A stretch of DNA of 41,959 bases from Lachnospiraceae bacterium. Its GTDB lineage: Bacteria > Bacillota > Clostridia > Lachnospirales > Lachnospiraceae. Shown in pieces: positions 8,635-23,969 of this stretch (positions are counted from its first letter, which is position 1; each line of letters opens with the position of its first letter). The notes under the pieces are model-generated. The model was given only the letters and a program-made list of their open reading frames with translations. It was not told the origin of the DNA and did no database searches. A program made the translations under genes and the position numbers. Location of the stretch: the NCBI GenBank assembly GCA_016286555.1, contig JAEETA010000021.1:1-41959 (forward strand), read 5' to 3'.

Positions 8635-8683
8635 AAAAACAAAAGGCGCCTCGACCTTTCCTTCGAAAGTTCAAAGCGCCTTT
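8635..8683 (-). terminator. Second leader hairpin of amt-PII (T2)
   Basis: AAAGGCGC arms (8676-8683 and 8642-8649) enclose a 26-nt region with an inner CTTTC-GAAG-GAAAG stem; a TTTTGTTTTT run follows on the minus strand. It lies between the promoter and the start codon and its 5' flank reads AAGGCAAAGGCGC, like the hairpins ahead of glnN and gltB. Confidence 0.65.
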
Positions 8684-8692
8684 GCCTTAAAC

Positions 8693-8730
8693 AAAAAATA
8701 GGGTGTCCCGGAAGTATTTCCGGAACACCC
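8693..8730 (-). terminator. First leader terminator of amt-PII (T1)
   Basis: GGGTGTTCCGGAA and TTCCGGGACACCC (8718-8730 and 8701-8713) pair over 13 bp with one G-U wobble and a 4-nt loop, followed after TA by six T (8698-8693). It begins about 13 nt from the predicted transcript start, so unaided polymerase should stop before reaching the gene. It can also end purF transcripts arriving from upstream. Confidence 0.8.
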
Positions 8731-8749
8731 TTGCTCCTTACAAGAACTG

Positions 8750-8778
8750 ATATTACTCTGATGATATTTATTTGTCAA
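8750..8778 (-). promoter_or_regulatory. amt-PII promoter
   Basis: TTGACA (8778-8773), a 17-bp spacer and TAATAT (8755-8750). A/T tracts lie directly upstream of the -35 and could act as an UP element. Predicted start near 8743. Confidence 0.75.
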
Positions 8779-8846
8779 ATAGATTTTTGAATTTTTTTCA
8801 AATTCGAAAAATCCATTGCAAATCGTGCATATTTATGACGCATCTG

Positions 8847-22300: not shown

Positions 22301-23843
22301 GCGCAAATTGCTGCTGGAAGAACCGGAACAGGGAAGGATCGTTTTCCGACAGGGGTGCCAGGGGCACATCATGTCCCATGGAAACCGTAGGCTCCGCGCC
22401 GTTAGTGGCAGCCTCCAGCAGATAGGTTTTCACTTCTTCGTAGCTGTAGCCAAAGACCTTGTAAAGTCTGTCCCGCTCCTGCTGGGTATGGGTCGGCACC
22501 TGATGGTTGGGAATGGTCAGGTTCTTCAGGTGGATCAGATGGGCATCCAGCCACTCTCCGTAAGGATTGGAAGACGCATAGTATTCCTTACACTCCTCGT
22601 CGGAAATGATGCGCTTCTTACGGGTATCCACCAGCAGCATTCTGCCGGGAGTCAGTCTGGATTTTTTGATGATATGGGCGGGATTGATATCCAGCACGCC
22701 CACCTCGGAGGACAGGATCAGACGATTGTCATCGGTGATGTAATATCTGGAAGGACGCAGTCCGTTCCGGTCCAGAGTAGCGCCGAAAAGCTCGCCGTCG
22801 GTAAAGAGGATGGCAGCGGGGCCGTCCCAGGGCTCCATCATGGTGGCATAATAATGGTAGAAGTCCTTCTTTGCCTCGCTCATGAAACGATTGTGCTTCC
22901 AGGGCTCGGGGATCAGCGCCATCATGGCCAGAGGAAGCTCCATGCCGTTCATATAAAGGAACTCCAGGGTATTGTCCAGCATTGCGGAATCGGAACCCTT
23001 GGCGGAGATGACAGGATAGATCTTCTCCTTCTCCGCGTCCACCAGAGGAGAATGCATGGTCTCCTCACGGGCCAGCATACGGTCGGAATTGCCACGGATG
23101 GTGTTGATCTCGCCGTTGTGGGCGATCATACGATAGGGATGTGCACGCTCCCAGCTGGGGAGGGTGTTGGTGGAGAAACGGGAGTGGACCAGCGCGATGG
23201 CGGTCTCGTACTCCCTGCTCATGAGATCTTCATAGAATCTCCGAAGCTGTCCCACCAGAAACATGCCCTTATAGACAATGGTGCGGGAGGATAGAGAGCA
23301 GATATAAGTATCTTCCGAGCTTTGCTCGAACTCTCTGCGCACCACGTAGAGCCTTCTGTCAAAGTCCGCGCCCTTCGCCAGCTCTTCCGGTTTTTTCAGG
23401 AAGCACTGCCAGATGGCGGGCATGCAGTCTCTCGCTCTGCCCCCCAGGATCTCCGGGTGGGTGGGAACCTCTCTCCATCCGATGACGGTGATTCCCTCCT
23501 TGCCGGCGATGACTTCAAACAGTCTCTTGGCAAAGGTTCTCTTCAGTTCGTCCTGGGGCAGGAAAAACATACCGATACCGTATTCCCCTGCGCGGCCGAT
23601 CTTCAATTTATCCTTTTTTGCCACGGACGCAAAAAAAGGATGGGAGATCTGCAGCAGGATCCCCACGCCGTCGCCCACGGTCCCGCTGGCATCCTTACCG
23701 GCTCTGTGCTCCAGCTTCTCCACAATGGTCAGCGCATCATCCATAACGGAGTATTCCGGCACTCCGTCAATCTTTACCACTGCGCCGATCCCGCAGGCAT
23801 CATGCTCTCTGTCGTAAGAAATCCCGCCTTTCATCTTGCTCAT
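19305..23843 (-). CDS. gltB: Glutamate synthase large (alpha) subunit
   Basis: A 1512-residue subunit converting glutamine plus 2-oxoglutarate into two glutamates. A 16-residue propeptide precedes the class II amidotransferase nucleophile Cys17 ([11 protein letters not shown]). The glutaminase domain has [29 protein letters not shown]. The central domain follows, then the FMN synthase domain with [37 protein letters not shown] and [14 protein letters not shown]. The 3Fe-4S cysteines are in [15 protein letters not shown]. The C-terminal glycine-rich beta-helix includes [25 protein letters not shown]. Length matches the bacterial family. It has its own promoter and a leader terminator hairpin. 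Confidence 0.97.
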   Translation of the reverse strand: [1512 protein letters not shown]

Positions 23844-23878
23844 CCTTTCCGCATGTCGTATTTACAATAGATAATAAG

Positions 23879-23928
23879 AAAAAAGCAAAGGAGTCCCTAA
23901 TGGTTTCATCCATTAGAGACTCCTTTGC
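23879..23928 (-). terminator. Leader terminator of gltB
   Basis: GCAAAGGAGTCTCTAATGG (23928-23910) pairs with CCATTAGGGACTCCTTTGC (23903-23885) over 19 bp with one wobble around the hexaloop ATGAAA, followed by six T. It begins about 6 nt after the predicted transcript start and 40 nt before the start codon. As it also lies after the DMT transporter gene it could end that transcript too. Confidence 0.85.
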
Positions 23929-23940
23929 CTCTTGCAGAAC

Positions 23941-23969
23941 ATAGTATTCTTTTCAATTTGCTTTGTCAA
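23941..23969 (-). promoter_or_regulatory. gltBD promoter
   Basis: TTGACA (23969-23964), a 17-bp spacer and TACTAT (23946-23941). Predicted start near 23934. Confidence 0.75.

Follow-up and report, generated by a model that had tools for sequence, protein, structure and literature searches.

Introduction

The leaders described here have their closest known counterparts in ANTAR antitermination systems, which we summarize from the portions of the cited papers that this comparison draws on. The dual-hairpin target of these proteins was defined in 2012, with a linker whose length matters (5-12 nt in eut) and a eut consensus, AGCAANGRRGCUY, that overlaps the 5' part of the eut terminators (PMC3369931). 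In 2022 the minimal binding motif was redefined as one six-base loop, or hexaloop, and further bioinformatics on single hexaloops was requested; the same work notes that EutX carries an extra single hexaloop and that the stem-loops of M. tuberculosis are not always dual-motif (PMC8934654). EutV, at the eut leaders of Enterococcus faecalis, is activated at Asp54 (PMC3369931, PMC8934654), and NasR, at the nasF leader of Klebsiella, binds the single hairpin P2 weakly, at about 12 uM, with full affinity taking both hairpins and binding seen just with nitrate or nitrite (PMC7496416). ANTAR leaders have also been predicted before the P-II, ammonium transporter and glutamate and glutamine synthase genes of Desulfotomaculum acetoxidans (PMC3369931), the C. 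thermocellum ANTAR protein Clo1313_2030 has been proposed as an antiterminator for ammonia assimilation at a glutamine synthetase-glutamate synthase (GS-GOGAT) cluster, in a paper that cites nitR/glnA of C. acetobutylicum (PMC4676874), and a survey of ANTAR targets in Actinobacteria used dual stem-loops (PMC8164766). Here we analyse a 41,959-nucleotide stretch of DNA, called the window, from Lachnospiraceae bacterium (GenBank assembly GCA_016286555.1, contig JAEETA010000021.1, positions 1 to 41,959), in which four nitrogen transcription units between positions 8,635 and 23,969 share a leader made of a promoter, an ANTAR-type hexaloop hairpin and an intrinsic terminator.

We read these leaders as a one-hexaloop antitermination regulon for glutamine and glutamate metabolism, lacking the upstream hairpin P1 of the eut leaders, whose reader would be a pseudo-receiver ANTAR protein co-encoded with glnA; from the sequence evidence we put the probability of this reading at roughly 0.8. 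An earlier note on this DNA had proposed that one factor reads a common arm and switches the whole block. Of that proposal, the idea that these units form one attenuation regulon through an element common to their leaders is supported, and the single factor narrows to a most likely reader, the ANTAR protein encoded with glnA.

Results

A single hexaloop hairpin in each of five leader terminators

The transcription units gltBD, glnA-ANTAR, glnN-asnB-pyrG-purF and amt-PII all lie on the reverse strand, as do all window features given below. Each begins with TTGACA, a 17-bp spacer, a -10 box and a terminator close to the predicted +1 (two terminators in amt), an arrangement that the earlier note had described and that promoter and terminator scans confirmed. 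The 5' arms it gave are correct on direct reading of the leaders, and the list of open reading frames (ORFs) together with the promoter scan places each promoter between the upstream ORF and the hairpin, as it had stated. The promoters occupy 23941..23969 (gltB, -10 box TACTAT, with the same placement in relatives), 17778..17806 (glnA, CATAAT), 15712..15740 (glnN, TATTGT) and 8750..8778 (amt, TAATAT). In a scan of the 18 kb from 7500 to 25500 these are the best four promoter-like sites, with 10-11 of 12 matches, and the remaining four sites listed there score 9. Both scans found the terminators of gltB (23876..23930, with the hexaloop inside its 5' arm) and glnN (15646..15703) and the first of amt (T1, 8694..8731), and the second scanner added those of glnA (17728..17767) and the second of amt (T2, 8636..8683). 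Neither promoter-like sites (8 versus 8.5, standard deviation 2.7, in shuffles) nor terminator-like sites (18 versus 14.0, standard deviation 4.2) exceed chance in 7500-25500, and the case is therefore carried by placement, arrangement and conservation and not by raw site counts.

The arm shared by these leaders, GGCAAAGGCGTC, is an ANTAR-type A1/G4 hexaloop hairpin of the form C[AANGGN]G on a stem of 4-9 bp, mutually exclusive with the terminator. Its five copies in the window are agaggc[AAAGGA]gtctct at gltB (23915..23932, 6-bp stem, with orthologues in relatives), gaac[AAAGGC]gttc at glnA (17755..17768, 4-bp stem, the weakest of the five), gaaaaggc[AAAGGC]gtcttttc at glnN (15683..15704, 8-bp stem), and, at amt, hairpin 1 in T1, ggagc[AAGGGT]gttcc (8722..8737, 5-bp stem), and hairpin 2 in T2, gtttaaggc[AAAGGC]gctttgaac (8669..8692, 9-bp stem). 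The five stems (4, 5, 6, 8 and 9 bp) differ in sequence yet pair, with A1 and G4 constant in the loop. The second scanner lists nine distinct terminators in the window (ten rows, gltB appearing twice), and an A1/G4 hexaloop hairpin overlaps the 5' arm of all five nitrogen-leader terminators and of none of the other four. As in ANTAR-target RNAs, the hairpin overlaps and excludes the intrinsic terminator in computed folds; when growing transcripts were folded by minimum free energy, the hexaloop hairpin was favoured up to about 35-49 nt and the terminator beyond that length in four of the five leaders. The leader loop with its closing pairs fits the eut consensus.

The earlier note had concluded, from the lack of room for two hairpins with A1/G4 loops, that recognition would be new or the reader something else, and this was not borne out, the GCAAAGGCGTC-like arms being themselves A1/G4 hexaloop hairpins. 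On the question of space it was correct, as the classical target with two hairpins does not fit: each terminator has a single hexaloop that opens the predicted transcript, with no space for another hairpin between the predicted +1 and the stem. The common arm being one A1/G4 hexaloop that fits the eut consensus, the recognition element looks classical, and it is the one-hairpin architecture at the 5' end that appears unusual.

Conservation of the element in relatives

We collected 42 relative loci (L033-L074) from named genomes, retrieved with the ANTAR protein of the window. In these and the window the hairpin is found on 54 of 129 terminators, at least three of which look like chance (L049 +19603, L056 -7933 and L072 +3911). 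In the nearest relative, also a Lachnospiraceae bacterium (L033, ANTAR protein 93% identical), the gltB loop is AAAGTC, with A1 and G4 retained and the 3' arm of the terminator altered to match. An alignment of 37 leaders, preselected for a stem of at least 4 bp and cleared of three weak-promoter rows and of near-duplicates, holds 44 double-change cells, where shuffles give 13.1 and slid controls no more than 16, and 90.7% of its cells are paired versus 77.8%. When rows were picked by promoter and C[A..G..]G, with no stem filter, 49 of 57 (47 distinct sequences) had 4 bp or more of stem, and the remaining eight (stem of at most 2 bp) all have a mismatched -35 box. When six-base windows carried by stems of 5 bp or longer were counted over 102 promoter placements, A..G occurred 45 times, A..A three times and C..C once. 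In the pooled loci, where the promoter is an exact TTGACA, 108 of the 110 C[A..G..]G windows lying 11-19 nt beyond the -10 box sit on stems of 4 bp or more, against 0 of 23 for other loop types at the same distance that are likewise closed by C and G.

The pooled loci had been obtained via ANTAR, via relatives with the arm pattern or via a covariance model, and they are not a random sample. The pool contains 155 distinct promoter-linked C[A..G..]G sites, of which 119 have a stem of at least 4 bp, three have 3 bp and 33 have at most 2 bp, so that a six-base A1/G4 loop on at least 3 bp is present at 122 of these sites as well as in all five window hairpins. The 119 sites (4 from the window, 43 from L033-L074, 32 from L075-L112, 8 from L113-L132 and 32 from L133-L151) retain a few likely false ones (L059, L062, L072). 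In 97 of them the stem starts close to the predicted +1, 5-10 nt downstream of the -10 box; loop position 2 is A in 117 and position 5 is G in 114. Downstream, 100 of the 119 have a complement of the loop matching in 7 or all of 8 bases, versus 24% for shuffled downstream sequence, and in 78 it is accompanied by a T-rich tail under a strict rule. At 90 of the 119 sites G and U form the second stem pair, which fits an RNA of that strand and not a DNA palindrome. The earlier note had set conservation of the arm in relatives as one test that its idea had to survive, and it did: the element is kept, with compensatory changes in its stem. A covariance-model search of relatives, which that note had also asked for, found the motif in 66 of 250 genomes sampled from the host family (E <= 0.01).

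Genes preceded by the element

The covariance model consists of promoter and hairpin, without the terminator, and was run on the window's own genome, on the 250 family genomes and on a sample of 341 genomes of the host class; stricter Infernal filters were in force above 40 genomes. In the own genome it matched all four leaders of the window, and a weaker match (E 0.117) marks a fifth leader, before the gene for LL-diaminopimelate aminotransferase, dapL. A sixth match (C48:8139, E 0.88) has no hexaloop by the rule used. The exact arm pattern gave 37 forward and 19 reverse matches in the own genome, where a control pattern gave 53 and 52, and two further exact arm matches, on contigs C21 and C23, have no hexaloop terminator.

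In other genomes the element precedes glnN, gltB, amt, glnA, asnB, pyrG, purF, glmS, gdhA and asnA, as well as the gene of a GltB-like protein with 22-31% BLASTP identity to the window GltB. The element-led genes are those of glutamine or glutamate enzymes or of ammonium uptake, in a list that was drawn from the best model matches only and may be incomplete or hold exceptions. The dapL leader of the own genome lies on a different contig (C44; L082 1616-2827) and reads gaagc[AAAGGC]gcttc followed by a terminator; the hairpin is also found before ORFs in L055, whose N-terminus resembles dapL by eye, and in L054 (406 aa). The dapL leader suggests that lysine or cell-wall synthesis is tied to the regulon. 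In L120, around 5385 (+), the element stands ahead of a hisA-like ORF directly upstream of glnA, and this histidine-type gene may share the glnA transcript.

An ANTAR protein as candidate reader

In the host family the ANTAR domain, PF03861, is present in 65 of the 66 motif genomes versus 219 of 250 overall (Fisher p 8e-4), and in the host class in 38 of the 41 motif genomes (E <= 0.003) versus 172 of 341 overall (p 1.5e-9); the genomes are related, which makes these p values optimistic. Overlap of motif and ANTAR was counted by comparing lists by eye, and the expected number of chance model matches is roughly 2 at E <= 0.01 in the family and 1 at E <= 0.003 in the class.

The ANTAR domain of the window protein scores 55.5 bits (curated cut-off 27.3), and its Response_reg match, 24.3 bits, falls below the cut-off of 30.2. 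In the receiver, Asn59 stands where the aligned Rv1626 (1s8n) has Asp, in the column that we take to be the phospho-acceptor position of receivers, and Asn holds this position in no fewer than 90% of 21 homologues. The acceptor Asp being absent, ordinary phosphorylation is unlikely, and we rejected a phosphorelay as the route of the signal. The RNA-contact residues named for EutV (PMC8934654) were mapped onto the window protein by ourselves from a HMMER alignment. The positions aligned with Lys149, Glu160 and Met172 are invariant in the 21 homologues; in EutV, Lys149 and Glu160 contact G4 (PMC8934654). The position of Tyr164 is an invariant His in the 21 homologues, as in AmiR, and the window protein has Arg in place of Lys143 and Lys147.

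On contig C48 (L075 285-2306) the own genome carries another glutamine synthetase gene (482 aa) and, after it, a second, different ANTAR gene (181 aa), followed in turn by an ORF resembling dapF. The 5 kb examined at this locus held no hexaloop terminator.

The nitrogen gene block

From the far end of the block, gltB encodes the large subunit of glutamate synthase (19305..23843, from the ORF list with tblastn orthologues); its name comes from the earlier note and from orthologues that adjoin gltD in relatives, not from the family-library scan, and one locus with an impossible start (L042) was left out of the orthologue comparison. The small-subunit gene gltD follows (17815..19278, TIGR01317). 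The glnA-type glutamine synthetase gene (16361..17581) has its best NCBIfam match in TIGR00653, under the curated cut-off of that family, and its end shares 4 bp with the ORF of the pseudo-receiver ANTAR protein, the candidate reader of the leaders (15780..16364, PF03861 E 4.8e-15). The type III glutamine synthetase gene glnN (13508..15610, PF12437 and PF18318), whose start was set at 15610 from the leader sequence and comparison with relatives, is followed by asnB (11897..13483), pyrG (10273..11880) and purF (8847..10310), all three named by the family scan. The last unit is an amt-PII fusion (6818..8578, PF00909 and PF00543), with ammonium transporter and P-II regulator in a single ORF, and it may serve the system as its nitrogen sensor. 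In C. thermocellum, too, one gene is described as having Amt and P-II domains together (Clo1313_2260; PMC4676874).

Discussion

Our findings point to a simple switch at the start of each nitrogen operon. Transcription from a sigma-70-type promoter would begin at, or a few bases from, the 5' foot of the hairpin with its AANGGN loop. When active ANTAR protein is absent, the loop and the 3' side of the stem would re-pair as the 5' arm of the longer terminator, and with the terminator formed transcription would end after about 50-60 nt. Active ANTAR protein, encoded with glnA, would grip the hexaloop, hold the hairpin and block the terminator, and the nitrogen operon would be read. We infer that this protein binds the leaders, that control runs in this direction and that induction occurs at low glutamine or nitrogen; the signal, given the Asn at the acceptor position, is presumably not phosphorylation, and a partner in direct contact, for example GlnA or the PII domain, may carry it.

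Several points weigh against this reading, and some of them concern the leaders themselves. The transcript starts are predicted positions, the hexaloop of amt T1 did not register in the transcript-growth folding, and a folding energy of -1.6 kcal/mol marks the glnA hairpin as weak. In the published work, deletion of P1 ablates eut induction (PMC3369931), and the 2022 model needs both hexaloops while polymerase runs (PMC8934654); by analogy, a single hexaloop might be insufficient for antitermination. On the side of the protein, EutV Arg142, Arg168, Asn173, Arg175 and Arg177 correspond to Ile, Gln, Asp, Cys and Ser in the window protein, and the presence of a second ANTAR gene in the genome makes the assignment of the reader provisional. 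Four motif genomes have no detected ANTAR domain, namely G199 in the family (70% complete) and G291, G439 and G460 in the class; a full-length ANTAR alignment search found none in the first three, and in G460 a weak match to the receiver region alone. Of these, G291 (loci L133 and L167) is 97% complete and has four motif matches, the best at E 6.4e-7, with no ANTAR by family or full-length search, so that either an assembly gap or a different reader would apply there. Conversely, 154 of the 219 ANTAR-positive family genomes have no model match. The ANTAR region was read in 20 of these, and 36 of the 44 terminators in those regions carry no hexaloop. Eight of the 20 regions show no hexaloop (one, L115, being without upstream sequence), and four are imperfect or displaced by eye, with a 3-bp stem in L126, a hairpin far from the promoter in L127 and an altered loop in L124 and L129. 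In the remaining eight (L113, L116, L117, L119, L120, L121, L125 and L130) an A1/G4 hexaloop with 4 bp or more of stem is indeed linked to a promoter, mostly before glnA, the exceptions being an element ahead of a short operon ending in glnA (L120) and one ahead of asnB (L125). The glnA leaders of L124 and L129 otherwise match, by eye, and have G instead of A at loop position 1.

Since the ANTAR antiterminators with tested leaders in the literature used here, those of eut and nasF, have two hexaloops (PMC3369931, PMC8934654, PMC7496416), ours could be classical dual-hexaloop leaders whose true start lies further upstream and takes in P1, or whose second hexaloop lies downstream. This is the alternative that survives best, and we consider it improbable. 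A promoter 10-20 nt ahead of the loop is conserved across the 119 sites, with a spacer of 17 bp in 115 of them. A1/G4 hairpins are not enriched upstream, where they number 10 in the 119 sites against 21 for A..A, 21 for T..A and 19 for A..T loops, and downstream they are the rarest loop type, at two of the 119 sites. We therefore rejected a second hexaloop on either side, that is, a P1 and P2 with a short linker; the scan of the 119 sites used a detector uncalibrated on a known dual leader, as a eut leader was sought among the collected loci through eutP loci and the eut consensus and none was found. Two specific candidates were also set aside. The gltB apical loop, ATGAAA, considered as a P2, has A1 and no G4, and amt hairpin 1 is too distant to be P1 for hairpin 2, their loops being 49 nt apart (54 in L034 and 56 in L039) versus eut linkers of 5-12 nt. 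As judged by sequence, these leaders are built with one hexaloop to each terminator, placed where the predicted transcript begins; they look and fold like an ANTAR target and, by the strict two-hairpin definition, are not one. Tandem attenuators, with two single-hexaloop hairpins about 50-130 nt apart, are seen at amt (window, L034, L039) and glnN (L047, L052, L056, L057). The glnA leader of L127 has agaac[AAGGGG]gttct far downstream of its promoter, with another possible hairpin between, and may represent a transitional form that leads to a leader with two hairpins or derives from one.

We hold it to be decidedly improbable that the leaders are read by a different factor, be it a metabolite-sensing RNA or some other protein that binds RNA, and that the ANTAR-like loop is convergent. 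The loop is identical to the eut consensus and the motif co-occurs with ANTAR; on the other side stand the four motif genomes in which ANTAR went undetected, among them G291 with its four matches. Metabolite aptamers are also generally larger than a hairpin of less than 25 nt. For such genes in other bacteria, a glutamine riboswitch class and a gltD motif candidate have been named (PMC8632094), but no Rfam family matched the window at gathering score, and a relaxed threshold in 8500-24000 yielded only implausible miRNA and plastid matches.

It is very unlikely that the hairpins are ordinary constitutive terminators or insulators that resemble one another through duplication of a leader between neighbouring operons, with a functionless hexaloop. 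The four leaders do lie inside 16 kb, and terminator-like sites are no more frequent than in shuffles; the stems, however, differ compensatorily between leaders around a constant A1 and G4, loop and terminator arm change together, as at gltB of the nearest relative, and the element precedes the unlinked dapL on another contig and, in other genomes, glmS, gdhA, asnA and purF. We give hardly any credence to a reading in which the arm works as DNA, as an operator where a repressor or activator would act immediately past the promoter: its distance to the -10 box does vary narrowly, but the frequent G-U second pair is strand-specific and would be asymmetric in DNA, and the complement of the loop occurs downstream.

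The one-hexaloop ANTAR regulon thus remains our preferred reading, and we lean, with less assurance, towards a broader form of it. P1-less ANTAR attenuators, in which the hexaloop is the first structure of the transcript, would be widespread in Clostridia, and a non-phosphorylated pseudo-receiver ANTAR protein would read glutamine status and switch the genes that make and use glutamine together; across genomes, the proposed co-switched set comprises glnA, glnN, gltB, amt, asnB, asnA, pyrG, purF, glmS, gdhA and dapL. If this is true, antitermination works without the recruitment hairpin demanded by current models. In the published model, as given in the portions of the literature used here, an ANTAR dimer lands first on the upstream hairpin and then passes to the antiterminator, both being needed. 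Natural one-hexaloop leaders in many genomes make the question of both hairpins testable with short, simple RNAs, and they provide a concrete candidate for the control of ammonia assimilation in Lachnospiraceae and other Clostridia. Searches built on two hairpins miss one-hexaloop targets by design, and ANTAR genes may for that reason appear to lack known targets.

Among the best matches in the open PubMed Central literature we found no report of single-hexaloop ANTAR attenuators at +1, and the described systems each share some features with the leaders of this window. Like nitR and Clo1313_2030, the window ANTAR protein is proposed to serve clostridial ammonia assimilation; unlike here, no leader RNA element is defined in the portion of that paper drawn on. 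The nasF system is likewise one of ANTAR antitermination for nitrogen assimilation and, unlike ours, needs both hairpins. As in the prediction for D. acetoxidans, several nitrogen genes have such leaders, whereas the search model used there demanded both loops. A single A1/G4-type loop as an ANTAR site has already been contemplated in print for EutX and for M. tuberculosis, in the portions of that literature considered; EutX, however, is a sequestering small RNA and the M. tuberculosis stem-loops lie at ribosome-binding sites or in 5'-UTRs (5' untranslated regions), and those portions describe no single hexaloop at +1 that is linked to a terminator. With eut of E. faecalis our leaders share an A1/G4 hexaloop hairpin that overlaps the 5' arm of the terminator and a candidate reader built of receiver and ANTAR domain; they differ in that the window protein has Asn at the expected acceptor position where EutV has Asp54, and in that eut needs the second hexaloop, P1, whereas here a single hexaloop opens the predicted transcript.

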